Shown piece after piece: positions 53,301-64,000 of a stretch of DNA of 64,000 nucleotides. Positions within the stretch are counted from its first letter, which is position 1; every line of letters starts with the position of its first letter. The notes beneath the pieces are model-generated. The model saw only the letters and a program-made list of their open reading frames with translations, had not been told where the DNA came from and ran no database searches. The DNA is from Streptomyces capitiformicae (GTDB lineage Bacteria; Actinomycetota; Actinomycetes; Streptomycetales; Streptomycetaceae), in contig NZ_CP022161.1 of NCBI RefSeq assembly GCF_002214185.1, forward strand, positions 3,037,767 through 3,101,766, read 5' to 3'. The position numbers were made by a program, and so were the translations under genes.

Positions 53301-54460
53301 CGCGCGGTCTCCCGGACGGTCTCGTCGGCGCGTACGGCGTCGAAGGCGTCCCGGAGCACCCTCTGTTCGTGCTCGTCGGGTCCGGTGCCGCGCACATGGG
53401 CCACGAAGTCCTCGGCGATCTGCTGGTCGTCGCGGCCGGCCAGGCGCCTGGCGTAGGAGACGTCCGGGTCGCCGGGGATACGTTCCGGGTCGAAGACGAG
53501 GCTGAGCGTGTGCGGGAAGCGCTCGCACAGCCGGGCCATGGGCTCCGCGGGGCGCACCGGGTCGGTGAGTGTCGCCTCGACCCAGGCGTCCTCATGGCGC
53601 GCCGACCCGGGGTCGGCGAGCAGGTCCGCCAACCGCCCCCGGATGCGGGCGAGTCGGCGCGGGACGGGGCAGTCGACGCGCTCGGCCTCGATCGAGCCGT
53701 CGGCGCCGAGGTCGACCAGCCACATGCTCTTGCGGTGGTCGGCCTCCGAGAAGGAGTACGGCAGAGGGGAGCCCGAGTAGCGCACGCGCTCGGTGATGGT
53801 CTGGCTGCCGTGCAGATGGCCCAGTGCCACATAGTCGACACCGTCGAAGACACCGGCGGGGACGGCCGAGACGCCGCCGACGGAGATGTCCCGCTCGCTG
53901 TCGCTGGGGGCACCGCCGGTGACGAAGGCATGGGCCAGGACGACGGAACGGGTGCCGTCCGCACGGGTGGCGAGGTCGGCGCGGACCCGGTCCATCGCGG
54001 CGGCGAGCACCGCCTCGTGCCCTCCCTTGTCCACCCCGAACTCGTCCTTCACCAGGGCGGGTTCGAGGTAGGGCAGCCCGTAGAAGGCGATGTCTCCGTG
54101 GGCGTCGGTGAGCATCACGGGGGTGCCGGCCGCCGAGGGCGCGGTCCGCAGATGGATCCCGGCCCGTCCGATGAGGCCCGCGCCGACGCCGAGGCGGCGC
54201 GCCGAGTCGTGGTTCCCGGAGATCATCACTGTGGGCACGCCCAGCTCGGCCAGGCGGTGCAGGGCGTCGTCGTAGAGCGCGACCGCCGCCAGTGGGGGCA
54301 CCGCGCGGTCGTACACGTCCCCCGACACGACCACCGCGTCCACCTCGCGCTCGCGCACGGTCGTGACGAGGTGACCGATGAACTCGGCCTGGGCACCGAG
54401 CATGTTCACCCGGTGGAACGCCCGGCCGAGATGCCAGTCGGAAGTGTGCAGAAGCCTCAT
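53297..54460 (-). CDS. sbcD: SbcD (Mre11-like) nuclease subunit
   Basis: 387 residues. The five phosphodiesterase motifs can be read: LLHTSDWHLGRAFH, SGDVYDRAVPP, MISGNHDSARRL, VLAHAFVTG and GHLHGSQ. Mn-dependent endo/exonuclease of the SbcCD complex. Translationally coupled to sbcC by an ATGA overlap. Confidence 0.95.
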   Translation of the reverse strand: MRLLHTSDWHLGRAFHRVNMLGAQAEFIGHLVTTVREREVDAVVVSGDVYDRAVPPLAAVALYDDALHRLAELGVPTVMISGNHDSARRLGVGAGLIGRAGIHLRTAPSAAGTPVMLTDAHGDIAFYGLPYLEPALVKDEFGVDKGGHEAVLAAAMDRVRADLATRADGTRSVVLAHAFVTGGAPSDSERDISVGGVSAVPAGVFDGVDYVALGHLHGSQTITERVRYSGSPLPYSFSEADHRKSMWLVDLGADGSIEAERVDCPVPRRLARIRGRLADLLADPGSARHEDAWVEATLTDPVRPAEPMARLCERFPHTLSLVFDPERIPGDPDVSYARRLAGRDDQQIAEDFVAHVRGTGPDEHEQRVLRDAFDAVRADETVRETAR

Positions 54461-54620
54461 GATCCCCGAAACTAACAGGCGGGTCGGACATCACGGGCGG
54501 CTACCGCCGAACCGGCCCGAGCGCACCGCACGGGACGGCCCTCCACGCGCGCGTGCCCCGCGAAATCGCCACTGCCGCGCGCGAACTCGTCACTGCCCGC
54601 GAGCTCGGCGCTGTCCCCGG

Positions 54621-55247
54621 TCACGCGTCCCCGTACGCCTCTCCTCCGAGTTCGAACCCCGCCGTGCCCACGGTGGCGTCGGCGAGCCAGGCGCGGAAGG
54701 CGTCCACGTCGGCGTCGAGGAGCCCGATCTCGATGGTGACGGCCTCGCCGTAGCGGACGTCGCGGACCTCGCGGCCGGTGGCGCGCAGGTCGTTCTGCAC
54801 CTTGCCGGCGCGCTGGTGGTCGACGGTCACCGTGGCCAGCCGGAAGCGGCGGCGCGTGATGCTGCCGAGCGCGTCCAGCGCCTCGCCCACGGCACCGCCG
54901 TACGCCCTGATGAGGCCGCCCGCGCCCAGCTTGACGCCGCCGTAGTAGCGGGTGACGACGGCGACGACGTACCGCATGTCCCGGCGCATCAGCATCTGCA
55001 GCATGGGGACGCCCGCGGTGCCGCCGGGCTCGCCGTCGTCGCTCACCTTCTGGACGGCGGCGTCGGCGCCGATGACGTACGCGTAGCAGTTGTGCGTGGC
55101 GTCGGCGTGCTCCTTGCGGACGGCGGCGATGAAGTCCTGGGCCTCCTGCTCGGTGGCGGCCGGGGCGAGCGCGCACAGGAACCGGGATCGGTTGACCTCG
55201 GTCTCGTGCACGCCGGCGCGGGCGACGGTGCGGTACTCGTCCTGCAT
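54621..55247 (-). CDS. YigZ/IMPACT-family protein
   Basis: 208 residues. The UPF0029 N-domain has RSRFLCALAPAATEQEAQDF, THNCYAYVIG and VSDDGEPGGTAGVPMLQML; a DUF1949 domain follows with VVAVVTRYYGGVKLGAGGLI. Conserved protein linked to translation or stress in other bacteria; no precise function. Confidence 0.9.
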   Translation of the reverse strand: MQDEYRTVARAGVHETEVNRSRFLCALAPAATEQEAQDFIAAVRKEHADATHNCYAYVIGADAAVQKVSDDGEPGGTAGVPMLQMLMRRDMRYVVAVVTRYYGGVKLGAGGLIRAYGGAVGEALDALGSITRRRFRLATVTVDHQRAGKVQNDLRATGREVRDVRYGEAVTIEIGLLDADVDAFRAWLADATVGTAGFELGGEAYGDA

Positions 55248-55315
55248 CCGGCCACCCTATGCGCAGTCCGGGGCGCCTCCGCGCCGGGCGTCGTCCGGGG
55301 CGGTCCGGTGTCCGG

Positions 55316-55882
55316 TCAGGTCTCCTTCTTCCCCTTCTTCCCCTTCTTCCCCCGGGCCACGATCATGTCCGTCAGCAGCGCCGTGCCCGGGGCGAGCGAG
55401 GCCCAGGAGTCGCCGTGCCAGGCGAGGATCGCGATCGCCGAGGTGGGGAACTTCGTCCGTACGTCGTCGAGCGCGTCGTCGAGGGCGTCCCCGGCGAGGT
55501 CCAGTACCAGCTCCTCCAGGCCGGGGTTGTGCCCGACGAGCAGCAGGGTGCGTACCTGGTCGGGCGCCTCGCGCACCACGTCGAGCAACTCCGGCACATC
55601 CGCCGCGTACACCCGTGGATCGTGCCGTACGGGTGGCGGCGTGCCCCACTGTGCGGAGGCCAGCTCCCAGGTCTGCCGCGCCCGTACGGCCGTGGAACAC
55701 AGGGCGAGGTCGGGCAGACAGTCCGCCTCGGCGAGGGCCCGGCCGGCGGCGGGGGCGTCGCGGCGGCCGCGCGGCGCCAGGGGCCGCTCGTGGTCGGGCA
55801 CGCCCACCGGCCAGGCGGACTTGGCGTGCCGCAGCACGACGAGTCTGCGCAGCGGGCCGGCTCCGCCGGATCGCCCACTCAT
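55316..55882 (-). CDS. SixA-type histidine phosphatase
   Basis: 188 residues. RRLVVLRHAKSAW contains the RH catalytic block of SixA phosphohistidine phosphatases; LLLVGHNPGLEELVL holds the second His. The C-terminus is GKKGKKGKKET, coded by a 9-base tandem repeat (TTCTTCCCC on the plus strand, 55326-55352). ATGA overlap with the preceding CysRS-like gene. Confidence 0.9.
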   Translation of the reverse strand: MSGRSGGAGPLRRLVVLRHAKSAWPVGVPDHERPLAPRGRRDAPAAGRALAEADCLPDLALCSTAVRARQTWELASAQWGTPPPVRHDPRVYAADVPELLDVVREAPDQVRTLLLVGHNPGLEELVLDLAGDALDDALDDVRTKFPTSAIAILAWHGDSWASLAPGTALLTDMIVARGKKGKKGKKET

Positions 55883-56568
55883 GCCGATGCTCCGATCTCG
55901 CGGGTGAGCTCAAGACCGAGCAGCCGGTCCGCATAGGCGTACGCCTCGAACCGCGCGCCGCCCGGCATGTCGTCCGCCCCCTCCACGTCCCGCAGGACGT
56001 CGAGCAGGCCGGGTACGTCGAGGTCGTCCTCCCAGGCGGCGCGCAGGGCCTGTCGTACGTGCTCTGGAATCGGCTTCGACGGCCGTGTCGCCCAGTCGGC
56101 CACCGCCTTGCGCCAGTGGTCGAGCAACGCCTCCGCCTCGGCGAGGGCGGTGGCGTCGAGATGCACCGGGGTCCGGCGGGGATGGGCGAGGAGGGCGAGC
56201 CGCAGGGCACCGTCCAAGGCGTCACACTCGTCCGTCCCGGTCACCCGCGCGACCTCGACCACGGCCTCGACGCCGCCCATGAGTTCTCCGGAGGCGCCCA
56301 CGTGCAGCACCTGGCGCCCTCCATCCGTCGCAGGCGCCTCGGTCGGCCGGATGCCGAGGCGGTCGGCGCGCTCCCGCAGTTCGGCACACGGGTCGCTGAC
56401 GAGGAGAACGGGGACGCCGCCCAACTCCAGGGCGCGCGCCAGGACGTCGGCGACCAGCAGTACCCGTAGCGCGGAGGTGTCACCCCGCGGCACATGGGCG
56501 TGAACGCGGGTGAGCACCCTGCGAACCTCGACGGGCTCGCCGGTCCGGGCATCGGTGATACGCAGCAC
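55879..56568 (-). CDS. truncated cysteinyl-tRNA synthetase-like protein
   Basis: 229 residues. The start MLRITDARTGEPVEVRRVLT resembles the first strand of CysRS/MshC (LrL.Dt.TG..v.P), and VRQALRAAWEDDLDVPGLLD resembles the CysRS helical domain (..AMDDDLNTP.AL..L). Neither HIGH nor KMSKS nor the zinc cysteines are present, so it cannot aminoacylate. It is co-translated with sixA. Possibly a conserved degenerate paralogue in Streptomyces; the function is unknown. Confidence 0.6.
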   Translation of the reverse strand: MLRITDARTGEPVEVRRVLTRVHAHVPRGDTSALRVLLVADVLARALELGGVPVLLVSDPCAELRERADRLGIRPTEAPATDGGRQVLHVGASGELMGGVEAVVEVARVTGTDECDALDGALRLALLAHPRRTPVHLDATALAEAEALLDHWRKAVADWATRPSKPIPEHVRQALRAAWEDDLDVPGLLDVLRDVEGADDMPGGARFEAYAYADRLLGLELTREIGASA

Positions 56569-56742
56569 GCAGTGAGCGTAGGCGCGGGGGCGACGGAACG
56601 CAGCACGGAGGACGACATGTCGGGCAACCGGCCGCCATCACGGCCGATCCCCGCACCGAGTGCCGCGAGCGGGCACCGGGAATCGCCGGCCACCCCGCGC
56701 TGTTGCCACAGGCAGCGTGAGAGCACCGACAGAGGAGACGGC

Positions 56743-57150
56743 ATGTACGGCGACCCCGCGACGATCCGCAAGATCCTGACGGAACTCGGCGACACCTGGG
56801 CCGTCGTCGGCCTGTCCACCAGTCGGAGCCGCGCGGCCTACGGCGTCGCCGAGGTCCTCCAGCGCTACGGCAAACGCGTCGTCCCGGTGCACCCCAAGGC
56901 GGAAACCGTCCACGGCGAGCCCGGCTACGCCTCCCTCTCCGACATCCCCTTCCCCGTGGACGTCGTCGACGTCTTCGTCAACAGCGACCTCGCGGGCCCC
57001 GTCGCCGACGAGGCAGTGCGCATCGGAGCCAAGGCCGTCTGGTTCCAGCTGGGCGTGATCGACGAGGAGGCGTACGACCGCACCCGCGCCGCCGGTCCGG
57101 ACATGGTCATGAACCGCTGCCCGGCGATCGAAATACCGCGCCTGGGCTGA
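56743..57150 (+). CDS. CoA-binding domain protein (YccU-like)
   Basis: 135 residues, one Rossmann CoA-binding domain: DTWAVVGLSTSRSRAAYGVA, VVPVHPKAETVHGEPGYASL, VVDVFVNSDLAGPVADEAVR and a late MNRCPAIEIPRL. Same fold as the succinyl-CoA synthetase alpha N-domain. GAGGAG precedes ATG 56743. Confidence 0.9.
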   Translation: MYGDPATIRKILTELGDTWAVVGLSTSRSRAAYGVAEVLQRYGKRVVPVHPKAETVHGEPGYASLSDIPFPVDVVDVFVNSDLAGPVADEAVRIGAKAVWFQLGVIDEEAYDRTRAAGPDMVMNRCPAIEIPRLG

Positions 57151-57194
57151 GATCCGGACCTTCCCGATCACCAGCCGCCGGGCCGGGGAGTGGC

Positions 57195-57200
57195 TACGAT
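57195..57200 (+). promoter_or_regulatory. -10 box of the TIR/macro/FxsC operon
   Basis: TACGAT 43 bases before the TIR gene start in a 92-base gap. A -35 element is not obvious. Only this gap can hold the operon promoter. Confidence 0.4.
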
Positions 57201-57242
57201 CGTGGGCGGGAACAGGCACGTTGGCGGCTGTGGGGGAACGCG

Positions 57243-58016
57243 GTGTCGAAACTCAAGGTTTTCGTGAGCTGGTCCGGCAAGCCGTCCATGCAGTGCGCGA
57301 TCCTGCTGCGCAACGCACTGCCCCTGTTCAACCCGCTCATCGAACCCTGGGTGTCGTCCGAGGACATCACCAAGGGCAACCGGGGATACGACGCGATCGC
57401 GGCGCGGCTCGCCGGTTCACAGTTCGGCATCGTCTGCGTCACTCCCGACAACCGCCGCACGCCGTGGATCAACTTCGAGGCGGGCGCGCTTTCCCGAGAG
57501 CTGGACGGCCCGCGGCTCGCCCCGTTCCTGCTGCTCGGCACGACGGTGACGGACCTGGTGGGCACACCGCTGATCCAGTTCCAGGCCACGTCCGCGGACG
57601 CGCCGAAGGAAGTGCTGCATCTGATCAAGACCATCAACGGTCTGTGCGAGGTACCGCAGCAGGAGAAACTCATCGACGACCTCTTCGAGATGTACTGGCC
57701 CAAGCTGGAGGAGGGGCTGGCGCGGATCGCCCCTGACGCCGAGACGGCGGAGGCCGACGAGGCCATCGTCCCCAGGCCGTCCGCCGGGGACGTCCAGGAC
57801 GAGATGCTGTCCCTCTTGCGACAGCAGGTCGACCGCATCAGCGCCCTGGAACAGGTAGTGGCGCAGATCGACCGCATCAACACCTTCGAGCAGGTCGTGG
57901 CTGAGGCCAGCGCGGAACGGGCGCGCGACCTGCGCAAGAGCCGGATTCTCTTCGACGGGATGTTCCCCGACGTCGGTCGTCGGGATCCCGACGGACAACC
58001 GGACGAGAGGGACTAG
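57243..58016 (+). CDS. TIR-domain protein with C-terminal coiled coil (ThsB-like)
   Basis: 257 residues. The N-terminal 150 residues are a TIR domain: LKVFVSWSGKPSMQCAILLR, EPWVSSEDITKGNRGYDAIA, FGIVCVTPDNRRTPWINFEA. WINFE is the WxxxE motif with the catalytic Glu of NAD-consuming bacterial TIRs. A linker leads to heptad-rich SLLRQQVDRISALEQVVAQI and AEASAERARDLRKSR, a probable coiled coil. GTG 57243 with GGGGGAA upstream. The next gene starts after 5 bases. With its neighbour it looks like the TIR sensor of a Thoeris-type pair (inference). Confidence 0.87.
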   Translation: MSKLKVFVSWSGKPSMQCAILLRNALPLFNPLIEPWVSSEDITKGNRGYDAIAARLAGSQFGIVCVTPDNRRTPWINFEAGALSRELDGPRLAPFLLLGTTVTDLVGTPLIQFQATSADAPKEVLHLIKTINGLCEVPQQEKLIDDLFEMYWPKLEEGLARIAPDAETAEADEAIVPRPSAGDVQDEMLSLLRQQVDRISALEQVVAQIDRINTFEQVVAEASAERARDLRKSRILFDGMFPDVGRRDPDGQPDERD

Positions 58017-58021
58017 CTTCG

Positions 58022-58894
58022 GTGGCCGGTCCCGTTCGGCGTGTGCGCACGCTGGTCGGCACGAGGCACGGTCTCGCCCAGCTCGGGCGGAACTGCGCGG
58101 TGCAGTTCGGTCTGCTGGCCGGTGGGGCCCAGCTCTTCTTCACGTTGTGGCCGGACGCCGACCTGCCCCGCTGGCCCACGTTCCTCGGCATCGCATGCCT
58201 GGCCGTGCTGATCGCGACGCTGATCTCGCTCCCCCGGGACCGCATCAGCCGCGACTTCACCCATCCCGACGTCACGGTCACGGTCGAGGTCGGCGACCTG
58301 TTCGACCACGCGTGCCATCTCGTCGTCGGCTTCACCGACACGTTCGACACCGACACCGCCGACGAGTCCCTCGTCTCGCGCCGCAGCGTCCAGGGGCAAC
58401 TCCTGCACCGGCTGTACGACGGTGACGTCGCCGCCCTCGACGCCCACCTCGCCGAAGCCCTCGCGGACATGACCCCGGTGCGCACGGAGTCCCGTACCTC
58501 GAAACGGATCGGGAAACTGGAGCGGTACCCGGTGGGCACGGTAGCCGTGGTCAAGGGCTCCGGCCGGAACATCTTCTGCACGGCCTACGGGCGCATGAAC
58601 AACGACCTGATCGTCAGCTGCGGCACGGAACAGCTCTGGAGCAGCCTCGCCCAGCTCTGGGACGCCGTCCGGCGCCACGGTCACCGCGAGAAGGTCGCCA
58701 TGCCGATCACCGGCTCCGACCTCGCCCGCATCAACAACATGGACCACTCGAGCCTGCTGAAGCTCGTCCTGTTGTCGTTCGTGGCCCATTCGAGGGCGCG
58801 GGGCGTGTGCGGATCACTGACCATCGTGGTGCACCCGCAGGACCACTACCGTATTGACATGCTCGAACTCGGTGTCTTTCTACGGTCGTTGTGA
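58022..58894 (+). CDS. two-TM protein with a ThsA-like macro domain (DUF6430)
   Basis: 290 residues. Two TM segments near the N-terminus (CAVQFGLLAGGAQLFFTLWP; TFLGIACLAVLIATLISLP) precede a macro-like domain: VTVTVEVGDLFDHACHLVVG, then FTDTFDTDTADESLVSRRSV and QGQLLHRLYDG. The GD.F....iVig.n..FDT and SvQGQ pattern is that of the macro domain of ThsA. In described type II Thoeris systems a TM-macro ThsA senses a TIR-made ADP-ribose derivative and damages the membrane. GTG start, spacing 5 bases from the TIR gene. Confidence 0.78.
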   Translation: MAGPVRRVRTLVGTRHGLAQLGRNCAVQFGLLAGGAQLFFTLWPDADLPRWPTFLGIACLAVLIATLISLPRDRISRDFTHPDVTVTVEVGDLFDHACHLVVGFTDTFDTDTADESLVSRRSVQGQLLHRLYDGDVAALDAHLAEALADMTPVRTESRTSKRIGKLERYPVGTVAVVKGSGRNIFCTAYGRMNNDLIVSCGTEQLWSSLAQLWDAVRRHGHREKVAMPITGSDLARINNMDHSSLLKLVLLSFVAHSRARGVCGSLTIVVHPQDHYRIDMLELGVFLRSL

Positions 58895-58912
58895 AGGAAG
58901 GAGCGGAAGCGG

Positions 58913-60148
58913 ATGCATGACACACGGTCGAATCCTTCGAGTCCGTACTTCTTCCTGAGCTACGCCCACACGCCGAATCGCGACGCGCGGGGCGCCGACC
59001 CCAACGCCTGGGTGCGGAAGCTGTACGAGGGTCTGTGCGATCACATCATGCAGCTGACCGACCTTCCGTGGGGAGCACGGGCGGGCTTCATGAGCCAGGG
59101 CATGGGGTGGACCGACGAATTGTCGGCCAATCTGGCGCGCTGCAAGGTGTTCGTGCCGCTGTACTCGCCGCGGTACTTCGTCAGTGAGCAGTGCGGCCGC
59201 GAGTGGTGGGCCTTCTCCCAGCGCCAGGTCAACCAGCGGGCGCGCGGCGGCGCCCCGCGGGAGAACGCGATCATCCCGGCACTGTGGATTCCCGTGGAAC
59301 CGGCTCAAATGCCGCAGGTGGCGAGGGATCTGCAGTTCAACCACGCCACTTTCGGGCAGGACTACGCGGACGAGGGCTTCTACGGGCTGACCAAACTGCG
59401 CTACCTCCAGGACGAGTACGAGCGGGCCGTGTACCGGCTGGCCAAACAGATCGTGCGGGTGGCCAGGGAGACCGATCTGGACGAGGGCCAGATCTCCAAG
59501 GACTACGAGTCGCAGCCCGCCGCGTTCGGCTCCAAGGAGCATCCGCCGGAGTTCGACATATCGGTGCTCGCCTGCACCCGTTCGGAACTGCCGCCGGGCC
59601 GCCGGCCGGACTACTACGGGGACCGTCCGCACGACTGGAACCCGTACCACCCGGAGTCGGCCCTGCCGCTCGGCGACTACGCGGCCGACCTCGTGCGCAC
59701 CATGGACTACAGGGTGAACCTCGAGGTGCTCGACGACAGCGCCCGCATGCTCGAGCCGGGGCCACCAAGGGCACCGGGAATTCTGTTCGTCGACCCTTGG
59801 GTACTGCGCAATCCGAGACATCGTGAGTTGCTGGCGAAGATGGACCAGGTGGCGCCTTCCGCAGTGACCGTGGTGGTGCCGTGGAACCGGCAGGACCCCG
59901 GGAGCCACACCGACGGAGGGCCGGGACCGGCCGAGTTGGAGGCCGTCATGCCACGCCTCCTCAGGCTCGGCCGATCCGCCTCCCGTACATCGGTCAGCGG
60001 AGTCGGAACGCTGGAGGCGCTACAGGAGATCTTGCCTCTGGTGGTGCGCCATGCCACCACGGAGTATTGGGCCAACGCGCGCACCTACCCCCCGGAGGCC
60101 ACCTCTTTCCCGCCTCCTCGCCTCGTCGACCCGGACTCTCTGCGGTAG
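58913..60148 (+). CDS. TIR-like FxsC protein
   Basis: 411 residues. The N-terminal half is the FxsC type of TIR-like domain: SPYFFLSYAHTPNRDARGAD, PNAWVRKLYEGLCDHIMQLT, CKVFVPLYSPRYFVSEQCGR with EWW. The C-terminal half (FDISVLACTRSELPPGRRPD, YYGDRPHDWNPYHPES, VTVVVPWNRQDPGS) is the second FxsC module. FxsC belongs to FxSxx-COOH systems with a small peptide FxsA and a radical-SAM enzyme FxsB; neither lies here. GAAGGAAGGAG precedes ATG 58913, 18 bases after the macro gene. Confidence 0.85.
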   Translation: MHDTRSNPSSPYFFLSYAHTPNRDARGADPNAWVRKLYEGLCDHIMQLTDLPWGARAGFMSQGMGWTDELSANLARCKVFVPLYSPRYFVSEQCGREWWAFSQRQVNQRARGGAPRENAIIPALWIPVEPAQMPQVARDLQFNHATFGQDYADEGFYGLTKLRYLQDEYERAVYRLAKQIVRVARETDLDEGQISKDYESQPAAFGSKEHPPEFDISVLACTRSELPPGRRPDYYGDRPHDWNPYHPESALPLGDYAADLVRTMDYRVNLEVLDDSARMLEPGPPRAPGILFVDPWVLRNPRHRELLAKMDQVAPSAVTVVVPWNRQDPGSHTDGGPGPAELEAVMPRLLRLGRSASRTSVSGVGTLEALQEILPLVVRHATTEYWANARTYPPEATSFPPPRLVDPDSLR

Positions 60149-60155
60149 GCCGCCG

Positions 60156-62582
60156 ATGACCAGTCACCGCGAGGGGCGCATCATCACCTTCTACTCCTAC
60201 AAGGGCGGCGTGGGCCGCACCATGGCCCTGGCCAACGTCGCCTGGATCCTCGCCGCCAACGGACACCGTGTGCTCGCTTCGGACTGGGACCTGGAGACGC
60301 CGGGTGGGCTGCCGCGGTACTACAGACCCTTCCTCCCCCGGGACGCCCTGGGATCCACGGGCCTGATCGACCACTTCACGGACTTCACCGACGCACTGCG
60401 CCGCCGGGGACACCCGGACGAGGAGTTCTATCTGCGGCATGCCGGCGTCGAGCACGCCATGTCCGTGGAGTGGACGTTCCCGGGGTCGGGGCGGCTCAAC
60501 TGCCTCTCCGCCGGGCGGCAGGACCGTGACTACCACGCCACCCTCGCCTCGTTCCGATGGGAGGAGCTCGACGCGCGGTTCCTGGGCGCCCTCAGGGAAC
60601 GCTGGCGGAGCGAGTACGACTACGTGCTGATCGACAGCCGCTCGGGCATGGGCAGCGCGGTCGACATTTGTATACGCGAACTGCCCGACATCCTGGTCAG
60701 CTGCTTCACCCTGAACGACCAGAGCATCGACGGCGCGGCGCTCACCGCCCTCCATGTCGCCCGCAGCGCCCCGGCCCACGGCGTGCGCATCCTCCCGCTG
60801 CCGATGCGGGTCAACGAACAGCAGGCGGACGCCTTCACCGCCGGGCGGGAACTCGCCAGATCGCGGTTCGCTGACGTGCCGCACGGACTGTCCCCGGACT
60901 CGCTGCGCCGCTACTGGGCGGAGAACCGCATCCCGCACCGCACGGGCTACGAACACGAGGAGGTACTGGCCACCTTCAAGGACGCGCCGGGTGATCCGGA
61001 CAGCCTGCTGGCCTCGTACGAGCGGCTGACCTCGGCGATCACCGGAGGCCGGGTCACACGGTTGCCCGCGCTCGACGAGACTCTGCGGCAGTACCACCTC
61101 GGGTCGTTCGTGCGGCCCCTGACACCGGAGGTAACACCACTGATCCTGTCCTCTGTGCCGCGCGACCGGATGTGGGCAGACTGGGTGCGCTGGGTGCTGA
61201 CGCGCGCCGGTTTCCAGGTCGTTCCGTCGTCCTTCGGCACGGACCGGCAGGGCGGAGCCGCGGTTCGTACGGTCATGCTGGTGTCGGCGGCGTATCTGAA
61301 GTCGTCCCGGGCACGGGCCGACTGGCCGACCGGCGACACCGGGCAGGCGCCGGTGCTGCTGCGGATCGACGACCGGGTTGTCCTCCCGGAGCCGTACTCG
61401 CGCCACACTCCCCTGGACCTGACCGCCCTGGACGCCGAGTCGGCGCGGGCGGCGATCCTGGAGGCGGTGGGAAGCCGCAGCCGGGAACATCGGACCGGCC
61501 CGGGGCCCGGCTTCCCGAACAGCCGCCCGGCCGTCTGGCAGGCCCCGCCCCGTAATCCCCGCTTCGTCGGCCGGGACCGCCAACTCGACGAGTTGCACGA
61601 CGCGTTGGCGGCCCACCGGCAGGTAACGGTGCGTGCGGCTGGGCTGGGCATGGGCCGCCGGCAACTGGCAGTCGAGTACGTCCACCGGTTCCGCGCGGAC
61701 TACGACCTCGTGTGGTGGGTCCCGGCCACCACACGAAGCCTCGCCGCCACGGCGCTGGCCCGCCTCGCCCGCCATCTCGAACTCCCCACGGCGGGTGGCA
61801 TCGACGCGGCGGCCCGGCGCGCGCTCTCCGCGCTGGAGGCGGGTAAGTCGTATGGCCGTTGGCTGCTGGTGTACGACGACGCCACGACCCCGGACGCACT
61901 CACGGAGTTCCTGCCCTCGGGCCCGGGCCGCATACTGCTCACCGTGCGTGACACACAGTGGGAGAAGCCGGGCCACCAACTGATACTCGAACACTTGCTC
62001 CCAAGGGAAAGTGTGGAACTACTGCTGGGCTGGGTGCCGTCGCTGGGGCCGGTTCTGGCGGACAGCCTGGCGACGGCGCTCGGGGACGTACCCCCGCTCG
62101 CGCTGGAGCAGGCCGGAGCCTGGCTCGCCGAGACGGGAGCGGCGGACCCGGTCGAGGAGTACTTGGCGCAGCTGGGGCACGGCGGCAACGGCGCGGGCCC
62201 CGGCGGCTCCCCAGCGGGTTCACCAGAGGGGCCCGCACGGCTCGCGGAAGGCGCCTTGCGAAAGAGATCCCCGGCCGCGCACCGCCTGCTGCAGCTGTGC
62301 TGCTGCTCCGCTCCCCTGTCGGTGCCGCTGACCGCGATACGGGGTGACGCCACCCTCGCCGCGCTCCGCCCCTACGACACCTCGCTCGACGAGGCACCCG
62401 GACTCGACGCTCTCGTCACGGAGCTGACCCGGCTGTGCCTGGCCGAGGCCGATCCATCGAGTAACTCCCTGCGCGTCCACCGCCTCGTGCAGCGGATCGT
62501 ACTCGCCGAACTTTCCCAGGACGAAAGGGAAACCGCCCTGCGAGACCTGCACGACATCCTGATCGCGGCGTCCGCGGGGTAA
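60156..62582 (+). CDS. FxsT-like ParA/TIR-like/NB-ARC-like protein without TPR region
   Basis: 808 residues. Domain 1 (1-290) is a ParA/MinD-like ATPase: FYSYKGGVGRTMALANVAWI, then LASDWDLETPGGLPRYY and YDYVLIDSRSGMGSAVDI; KGGVGRT is usual in FxSxx-system proteins. Domain 2 (about 325-445) is TIR-like but lacks WxxxE. Domain 3 (from 466) is NB-ARC-like: NPRFVGRDRQLDELHDALAA, but its P-loop reads GLGMGRRQ (496-503), with no Lys. A winged-helix-like end (LRVHRLVQRIVLAELS) closes the protein; the TPR array of full FxsT proteins is missing. It starts 7 bases after fxsC. Confidence 0.85.
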   Translation: MTSHREGRIITFYSYKGGVGRTMALANVAWILAANGHRVLASDWDLETPGGLPRYYRPFLPRDALGSTGLIDHFTDFTDALRRRGHPDEEFYLRHAGVEHAMSVEWTFPGSGRLNCLSAGRQDRDYHATLASFRWEELDARFLGALRERWRSEYDYVLIDSRSGMGSAVDICIRELPDILVSCFTLNDQSIDGAALTALHVARSAPAHGVRILPLPMRVNEQQADAFTAGRELARSRFADVPHGLSPDSLRRYWAENRIPHRTGYEHEEVLATFKDAPGDPDSLLASYERLTSAITGGRVTRLPALDETLRQYHLGSFVRPLTPEVTPLILSSVPRDRMWADWVRWVLTRAGFQVVPSSFGTDRQGGAAVRTVMLVSAAYLKSSRARADWPTGDTGQAPVLLRIDDRVVLPEPYSRHTPLDLTALDAESARAAILEAVGSRSREHRTGPGPGFPNSRPAVWQAPPRNPRFVGRDRQLDELHDALAAHRQVTVRAAGLGMGRRQLAVEYVHRFRADYDLVWWVPATTRSLAATALARLARHLELPTAGGIDAAARRALSALEAGKSYGRWLLVYDDATTPDALTEFLPSGPGRILLTVRDTQWEKPGHQLILEHLLPRESVELLLGWVPSLGPVLADSLATALGDVPPLALEQAGAWLAETGAADPVEEYLAQLGHGGNGAGPGGSPAGSPEGPARLAEGALRKRSPAAHRLLQLCCCSAPLSVPLTAIRGDATLAALRPYDTSLDEAPGLDALVTELTRLCLAEADPSSNSLRVHRLVQRIVLAELSQDERETALRDLHDILIAASAG

Positions 62583-62599
62583 CCCGGCCGAGGGAGGGC

Positions 62600-63535
62600 T
62601 CAGTCGTGTGCGACGACCGCGACCGGCGCGGTCGCGTGGTGGAGTACGGCGTGGGTGACGGGGCCGATGTGGGTGCCGAGTGGAGAGTGGCGGATACGCC
62701 GGCCGACGACGACCAGGGAGGATGCGTGGGAGGCGTCGACCAGGTGGTCGGCCGCCTTGCCCAGGCGGGACTCCGCGACGACCTCGACGGCGGGGAACTC
62801 GCGCCTCCAGGGGCTCAGCACTTCGGCCAGTGCCGTGGCGTCTTCGCGGCCCAGGCCGGCGTCCGGTTCGGGTTCTTCACGCAGGCCGTGCGCGAAGTGG
62901 CGTGGTGGACTCCAGTCGTGGACGACCCGCAGGGCCGTCTCCCGCAGGGCGGCGGCCTCGAAGGCGAACCTGATCAGTGGGTCGTTGGGGTGCGTCGTGT
63001 CCAGGCCGAGGACGACGGGCCGGAACGGTGCCGCGGCCGACGGGGCGCCGGAGGGGTCCGGCGCGTGTTCGTCCGCGGCCCACTCACCGGCCCGGACGAG
63101 GACGACCGGCCGCTCGGTGTGCGCGACGACATGCAGTCCGACGGAGCCAAGGAGGAACCCGGCGATCCCGCTCACGCCTCGGGAGCCGAGCACGACGAGT
63201 TCGGCGTCGGCGTCCTCGGCCGCGTTGACCAGTTCCTCGGTCGCCCGGCCCGTCAGCTGCTCGGTGGTGACCTCCACGCCGGGGTGCCGCAGCCGGATGC
63301 CGTCGGACCTCTCGCGCAGGATCCGGCCGGGGCCGGTCCCCGTCGGACCGGGCTCGGTCCATTTCTGCCGTGTCTCGGTGTCCAGGATCGGCGCGCCCAT
63401 CGGCTCGGGGAACAGTTCCCAGACGTTGACCAGCCGCAAGGGCAGTGCGCGCAGCCGCGCCTCCGTGGCCGCCCACTCGGTGGCGGCCATGCTCTCGGGG
63501 GAGCCGTCGAGGCCCACGACGACGGTGCGGGGCAT
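62600..63535 (-). CDS. tandem universal stress protein
   Basis: 311 residues, two UspA domains. The first has VVVGLDGSPESMAATEWAAT and the ATP-binding GSRGVSGIAGFLLGSVG (G-2x-G-9x-G-S); the second has VVLGLDTTHPNDPLIRFAFE and GRRIRHSPLGTHIGPVTH, a less perfect match. ATG 63535 with GAGGAGGTG upstream. Such dimers-in-one-chain respond to hypoxia, stationary phase or stress in actinobacteria. Confidence 0.92.
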   Translation of the reverse strand: MPRTVVVGLDGSPESMAATEWAATEARLRALPLRLVNVWELFPEPMGAPILDTETRQKWTEPGPTGTGPGRILRERSDGIRLRHPGVEVTTEQLTGRATEELVNAAEDADAELVVLGSRGVSGIAGFLLGSVGLHVVAHTERPVVLVRAGEWAADEHAPDPSGAPSAAAPFRPVVLGLDTTHPNDPLIRFAFEAAALRETALRVVHDWSPPRHFAHGLREEPEPDAGLGREDATALAEVLSPWRREFPAVEVVAESRLGKAADHLVDASHASSLVVVGRRIRHSPLGTHIGPVTHAVLHHATAPVAVVAHD

Positions 63536-63641
63536 GGGACGCACCTCCTCGGGTCGGGCGGTGTCTCCAGGTTTAGTCCTCCCTCCCCGGGTCACCCGAA
63601 TCGGCGCGGTCAGGCCTGCCAGGCCGAACGCGCTCAGCCAC

Positions 63642-64000
63642 TCACACCGGCAGCAATCGCGTCACCAGTTCACCGAGACGCCGGGCGTTGCGGCAGGTGT
63701 GCATGGCGACGACCTCGGCGTATGCGGGGGCGGCGGAGTCGCCCGTGCCCCACTGCGAGGGGGACTCAGGGTTCAGCCAGTCGACGCGGCGGGCGCGGGC
63801 CGCGACACGTCGCAGGGCGGCCACGTTGGGATCGAACCCGTTGGTACGGGCGTCACCGAGGACGATCACCGACGTACGCGGGCCCACCGCGTCGAGGTGG
63901 CGCTCGGCGAACTCACCGAGCGCGGCCCCGTAGTCGCTGCTGCCGTGCCAGCCGCTGATCGTGGCCTCGGCGGCGATCCGGCGGCCGAGCTCGGCGGGGT
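63642..64000 (-). CDS. CoxE-type VWA protein, C-terminal part
   Basis: The gene enters from beyond base 64000; about 118 residues are visible. SSDYGAALGEFAERHLDAVG, TSVIVLGDARTNGFDPNVAA and VDWLNPESPSQWGTGDS are the end of a von Willebrand factor A domain of the CoxE family, which acts with MoxR-type AAA ATPases. The MoxR gene, if present, would lie outside. Confidence 0.8.
   Translation of the reverse strand, partial: PAELGRRIAAEATISGWHGSSDYGAALGEFAERHLDAVGPRTSVIVLGDARTNGFDPNVAALRRVAARARRVDWLNPESPSQWGTGDSAAPAYAEVVAMHTCRNARRLGELVTRLLPV

Follow-up and report, generated by a model that had tools for sequence, protein, structure and literature searches.

Four adjacent genes and their products

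The 64,000-nucleotide stretch of the Streptomyces capitiformicae chromosome analysed here (hereafter the window; the chromosome is a single contig of 10.99 Mb) carries four plus-strand genes, g1 to g4, that are separated, in order, by 5, 18, and 7 bases and encode a TIR protein, a membrane-anchored macro protein, an FxsC, and a short FxsT. Recurrence and gene trees support a co-inherited composite operon in which a TIR/macro pair of Thoeris type is joined to an FxsC/FxsT pair of FxSxx type. Since the gaps offer scant space for promoters of g2 to g4, the four genes are likely to share one transcript; the last gap depends on the start of g4, for which the mechanical open reading frame (ORF) begins at 60051 and we took the in-frame ATG at 60156. 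The initial annotation had described four same-strand genes with these gaps and a TIR product with WxxxE, and the ORFs, the profile matches, and an alignment covering W75 and E79 of g1 agreed. Its assignment of the first two genes to a Thoeris-like pair and the last two to an FxSxx-type pair was likewise borne out by PF20016, PADLOC, and NCBIfam matches.

The product of g1 (57243–58016; 257 residues) scored 24.5 bits against TIR_2, below the Pfam cut-off of 28, and had the PADLOC model 'TIR-TM' as its best match (175.7 bits). Across an alignment of 39 sequences W75 was near-invariant and E79 fully invariant, and by eye the C-terminal tail looked heptad-like. We presume that g1 is an NAD+-using enzyme; with its catalytic-type Glu kept, it ends 5 bases before a ThsA-type gene, the adjacency that characterises Thoeris. 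Genes of the g1 family occur in other settings as well: three (L148 8555–10102, L150 7252–8817, and L151 8549–10197; our own locus and genome handles carry the letters L and G) adjoin a gene for a small protein that by eye has a hydrophobic stretch, with no macro or Fxs relatives found near them, and a plasmid of Gloeothece verrucosa carries one (L135 6001–6843) just 5' of the cas10 gene of a type III-B CRISPR locus.

The product of g2 (58022–58894; 290 residues) is a ThsA-type macro protein, matching PF20016 (ThsA_Macro) with 209 bits, the PADLOC model ThsA1 with 356 bits, and the solved ThsA macro domain with an E-value of 6e-16. Two transmembrane segments had been proposed for it; one clear segment, at residues 48–75, was found by hydropathy, as is expected of a membrane ThsA in Thoeris, and the second stayed below the threshold. 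We presume that g2 is the effector. In two other loci (L116 6973–9358 in G068; L117 2270–4643 in G183) a membrane-macro gene stands head to head with a gene fusing a macro domain to a regulator-like N-terminus, which we take to be SARP-type, and two macro matches in divergent placement are frequent among genomes of the genus.

The third gene (58913–60148; 411 residues) encodes FxsC, with a TIR-like N-terminus bearing the motif CGxEW and an FxsC C-terminal domain, and scored 218 against NF040588 (cut-off 130) and 179 against TIGR04276 (cut-off 55). The motif was present in all 14 FxsC sequences compared, and its C, G, E, and W were invariant in a wider set of 31. On one Streptomyces plasmid FxsC is annotated within a 4575-base coding sequence (L137 4608–9182) downstream of an AAA ATPase gene, and some chromosomal FxsC matches without FxsB likewise sit in very long frames.

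The fourth gene (60156–62582; 808 residues) encodes an FxsT in which a KGGVGR ParA-type ATPase (116; cut-off 90) is followed by a TIR-like domain (TIR_2, 31), an NB-ARC domain with the Walker A Lys changed to Arg, and a DUF7779 region. Its match to FxSxx_TPR (323; cut-off 300) covers only positions 2–351 of 830, so that it is without the tetratricopeptide repeat (TPR) part, whereas a full-length FxsT elsewhere in the same genome matches positions 1–830. Among 26 FxsT sequences aligned, KGGxGR was present in all and by eye none had a Glu at the catalytic position of the TIR-like domain; the NB-ARC Walker A residue was Arg in all seven sequences from TIR-linked loci and Lys in 17, the remaining two being half-length proteins without the domain. 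Among the best 120 FxsT relatives the residue was Lys in 91, Arg in 28 (26 tagged by script; P0199 and P0204 assigned by reading), and unclear in one. Because the TPRs of the window branch and the P-loop Lys have been lost, a standard ATP-driven STAND sensor is disfavoured, and the proposal of the initial annotation that the STAND part senses was not supported.

Length varies among the TIR-linked FxsT proteins, which extend past the end of the window's copy by 0–1 residues in the window, S. ipomoeae, and G139, by 100 in G803, and by 468 in G097, G148, and G106. The possibility that the short form is a decay product was ruled out by the ratio of nonsynonymous to synonymous substitution rates (dN/dS) and by 12 database FxsT proteins of similar size (P0184–P0195; 806–813 residues, 63–97% identity), which include those of S. 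ipomoeae and S. ossamyceticus. An extra, shorter FxsT-like gene runs divergently from the TIR gene in G097, G148, and G106. The short FxsT of G139 is followed 286 bases 3' by a gene (L039 3250–5487) whose product combines TPRs with a hydrophobic N-terminus and matches nSTAND3 weakly; other loci match its TPR part only.

Recurrence and shared inheritance

The four genes recurred in the same order in four further genomes, those of S. ipomoeae, G139, G097, and G803, which gives five loci in two genera with macro identities of 60–86%; the initial annotation's expectation of recurrence in other strains was thus upheld. The most distant locus, that of G803 in another genus, showed identities of 45% for TIR, 60% for macro, 43% for FxsC, and 48% for FxsT, and on the S. 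ipomoeae 91-03 contig the quartet adjoins relatives of the window's upstream genes. Genes in these other loci were called by a simple script, and the starts in L147 and L040 are approximate, the L147 gaps not being used. Across 199 genomes of the genus we found a macro relative in 23 and an FxsC in 75 (both at E 1e-3) and a g1-type TIR in seven (E 1e-10). Five of these seven TIR genes have an FxsC gene no more than 3 kb away, where the number of FxsC genes and the genome sizes predict 0.007. Each half also occurs alone. Two more genus genomes, G148 and G106, carry TIR, FxsC, and FxsT without an intact macro gene.

With g1 as query, 217 genomes of the family gave seven matches, namely the window itself, the G803 quartet, and five lone TIRs. 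Among 71 macro stretches, some representing two matches in one genome and most with 1.5-kb flanks, all four genes were present in four, TIR and macro in six, macro only in 60, and, by this test, none in one. Class-wide, nine of 394 genomes had a macro relative (E 1e-20), with FxsC in the short flanks only at the window's own locus. Plasmid records yielded seven macro, ten TIR, and five FxsC matches, and none of the records with a macro match recurred among those with a TIR or FxsC match (for FxsT, 30 are listed of 34 plasmid records), and a scan of viral contigs with FxsT found no relative. Relatives of g1 agree in organism and in length of the longest contig with relatives of FxsC or FxsT for Streptomyces NPDC001137 (152772), S. 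canus (130599), NPDC093970 (182507), NPDC058642 (11568), and S. ossamyceticus (32982), and for SAI-208, where the contig is a whole chromosome (9305551); such agreement offers indirect support for recurrence.

The gene trees point to shared descent of the macro and FxsT genes. The five quartet macros formed one clade among 22 sequences (support 99), and the FxsT proteins of the seven TIR-linked loci fell on one side of a branch among 26 (Shimodaira–Hasegawa-like approximate likelihood ratio test, 100); in a wider FxsT tree 30 sequences with the Walker A change were set apart from 17 with Lys (100). The TIRs of Fxs-linked loci lay in one set of 18 (98) that excludes macro-only TIRs, the context being known from DNA for seven of the 18. 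Duplicates (L064, L065, L067, L068, and L072–L076) were omitted from the trees, as were two long-branch paralogues of the window's own genome from the careful FxsC tree, and the FxsC of L066 and L080 escaped our extraction pattern. Since the quartet recurs and is co-inherited, it is not the neighbourhood of a single strain. Comparing the window with S. ipomoeae and with G139, respectively, dN/dS was 0.35 and 0.26 for TIR, 0.28 and 0.22 for macro, 0.32 and 0.39 for FxsC, and 0.21 and 0.29 for FxsT, values indicating that the quartet genes are under purifying selection.

Remnants of the macro gene were found where the intact gene is missing. The interval between TIR and FxsC in G148 holds a 25-codon match to the C-terminus of the G097 macro (scoring 75, where the highest of 500 shuffles gave 47), and that in G106 a weaker one (score 50 against a shuffle best of 47); compared with the window macro, the G106 remnant scored 32, a level attained by 130 of 500 shuffles. 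From these remnants, a macro gene was most likely once present in G148 and G106 and then deleted. Between these two genomes dN/dS is 0.25–0.27 for TIR, FxsC, and FxsT, so that constraint was retained after macro loss.

Separation from the FxSxx peptide machinery

The history of FxsC differs from that of its partners. Three of the TIR-linked FxsC proteins, from the window, S. ipomoeae, and G139, are placed within peptide-system FxsC (the window genome's own, and those of G139 and G108), and a single clade for all TIR-linked FxsC was rejected (approximately unbiased test, p 8.9e-7, with the constraint group chosen after the first tree had been viewed). This placement and the rejection together indicate that FxsC of the window branch is a replacement by a copy of peptide-system lineage. 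The G803 FxsC has a long branch and its placement is unsure. The initial annotation's notion of one pair added to another is supported as to the composite itself but is too simple, as the TIR-FxsC-FxsT trio persists with a macro stump in G148 and G106 and FxsC has a separate history.

The TIR-linked FxsC genes also stand apart from FxsB. Scoring at most five candidates per genome for FxsB and FxsT and nine for FxsC, and taking FxsC matches up to E 1.8e-51 with weaker ones left out, we found a listed FxsB within 6 kb of 63 of 77 FxsC matches: none of the five TIR-linked ones (for whose genomes the complete FxsB match list was used) and 63 of the 72 others (p 1.0e-4 by Fisher's test, which takes no account of relatedness). 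The 14 FxsC loci that lack FxsB include those of G011 and G108, for each of which there is one FxsB match beyond those listed, and G139:C307, which starts close to the end of a contig. The FxsB query itself was genuine (TIGR04269, 602; cut-off 370). No AAFQS-type FxSxx ORF was seen in the seven TIR-linked loci (window 54001–64000, L039, L040, L046, L107, L108, and L147), L108 having one unrelated-looking ORF that ends in FKSRF, 3.3 kb beyond the TIR gene; as such an ORF was found in only four of six peptide-system loci (L042, L109, L111, and L112, not L110 or L113), the scan misses some. The L042 ORF was above its NCBIfam cut-off (32.4; cut-off 28). FxsB was matched at E 1e-40 in 143 genomes, with at most five candidates scored per genome, and neither G148 nor G106 was one of them; FxsC and FxsT there are therefore unlikely to serve an FxsB-made peptide. 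Two FxsB-FxsC-FxsT loci (L111 4011–14939 and L113 3935–15191) lie near CoA-binding and UPF0029-like genes (by eye) of the kind that flank the window quartet, as if they had a chromosomal site in common with it.

A candidate immune pathway and its relation to known systems

The operon suggests a rewired bacterial immune pathway. Our leading reading, which we hold tentatively, is an inherited four-gene Thoeris-like immune module in which FxsC, together with a degenerate FxsT, controls a TIR-to-macro pathway. When the cell is infected, the g1 TIR would assemble with FxsC and FxsT through TIR–TIR contacts and, once assembled, would convert NAD+ to a nucleotide of the ADP-ribose (ADPR) type; the macro domain of g2 would bind this nucleotide and cluster its membrane segment, and the cell would stop growing or die. 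FxsC and FxsT would form a control or sensing scaffold with neither an ATP-driven STAND switch nor the peptide machinery of FxSxx systems. In G148 and G106, which have lost the macro gene but keep the trio, the TIR would work by itself, perhaps as an NADase; because the trio persists there, independent action may also be open to the TIR. A broader claim, possible but held with somewhat less assurance, is that this represents a new immune architecture, a peptide-system TIR/STAND pair freed from its peptide machinery to become the controller of a Thoeris-like pathway, with the ATP switch lost, the TPR sensor lost in one branch, and an exchangeable FxsC common to peptide systems of the same cell.

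Several observations weigh against this module. The g1 protein scored 12.9 bits against the PADLOC ThsB model and does not look like a typical ThsB. At ten pocket positions g2 retains the equivalents of EcThsA D83, D100, S217, and H259 (D100 being structural, without ligand contact, in the part of PMC11204291 that treats pocket residue roles) and differs at six (L113V, N114Q, S175G, G218D, T220A, and K262D), because of which its ligand is unsure. These changes are not specific to the quartet, as Gln at 114 is common to all 22 actinobacterial macro sequences and BaThsA, which itself departs from EcThsA at 259 and 262, has the same Asp 262 as g2. The full quartet is rare (three of the 199 genus genomes, G000, G139, and G097); some TIR relatives are accompanied by macro only and others by neither partner, peptide-system FxsC and FxsT occur without TIR, and the five lone family TIRs had no macro or Fxs relative across 16–18 kb. 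The quartet's neighbours are ordinary, with UPF0029 and CoA-binding genes upstream and a universal stress protein gene downstream, and PADLOC recognised no defence gene among ten flanking genes of four loci (three each in the window and L039, two each in L040 and L147).

An unlikely alternative is that the TIR, with the macro protein, is self-harming and that FxsC and FxsT restrain it through TIR–TIR contacts until phage or stress disturbs them. The lack, by eye, of a catalytic Glu in the FxsT TIR-like domain, the NB-ARC change in seven of seven, and the constraint on the genes would all fit such a guard, but FxsC retains its catalytic-type Glu, and since TIR and macro occur without an FxsC or FxsT relative in six of the 71 macro stretches, an inhibitor of this kind is not generally required. 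More doubtful still is the idea that FxsC is a second signal-making TIR with its own trigger, feeding the macro protein, and that FxsT merely scaffolds it. The invariant FxsC Glu, the existence of Thoeris systems with several ThsB proteins (according to the part of PMC11204291 consulted), and the swapping of FxsC, as a modular trigger might be swapped, speak for it; the constraint on FxsC and FxsT in G148 and G106 after macro loss speaks against it. It is improbable that the quartet is a response arm of the resident FxSxx peptide system, its FxsC and FxsT reading a peptide signal produced from another locus and turning TIR and macro on: the genome does hold FxsA, FxsB, FxsC, and FxsT, all above NCBIfam cut-offs, at ~2.26 Mb, and the FxsC of the window branch is of that lineage, but G148 and G106 keep the trio with no FxsB match at E 1e-40 among the candidates scored, at most five per genome. 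A chance neighbourhood of two unrelated systems, although each half also exists alone, was rejected as highly implausible, being contradicted by the same gene order at five loci from two genera, by the co-inherited clades, by the macro stump, and by the diagnostic FxsT change.

The Thoeris-like module thus appears to combine parts of two known systems in one inherited operon, and in our literature search (titles and abstract starts, among the matches listed, with most subscription papers outside it) the combination was not described, as the initial annotation had supposed. It would link Thoeris signalling to the functionally unexplained FxSxx proteins, so far treated separately, and would give FxsC and FxsT a testable role outside peptide maturation, the control of a TIR enzyme; the macro-less loci, the TPR-less loci, and the swapped FxsC offer natural experiments. 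A published account of peptide-processing and AP-ATPase conflict systems with inactive MinD/ParA (PMC7159879) makes no mention, in the part consulted, of a Thoeris TIR/macro pair or of a peptide-free version. FxSxx-COOH systems share with the quartet FxsC followed by FxsT, both above NCBIfam cut-offs; unlike them, the quartet has no nearby AAFQS-type FxsA ORF or FxsB, has TIR and macro genes before FxsC, and in the window has an FxsT without TPRs in which the Walker A Lys of NB-ARC is missing. With the membrane-macro Thoeris systems EcThs and BaThs it shares, judging from the part of PMC11204291 consulted, a ThsA-family membrane macro protein beside a TIR with a catalytic-type Glu; it differs in having FxsC and FxsT added and a TIR unlike the 169-residue protein encoded directly 5' of the macro gene in L131–L133. 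Macro effectors of Thoeris bind TIR-made ADPR-type nucleotides and then oligomerise, as that same part of PMC11204291 reports. The staphylococcal system ThsA-B1-B2, as described in the portion of PMC12578639 consulted, has no FxsC or FxsT and its effector depletes NAD+ and is not a membrane macro protein, but one of its TIR proteins binds the trigger and recruits and activates the second, and by analogy with this functional precedent of a TIR activating a TIR we infer that FxsC and FxsT may control the g1 TIR.

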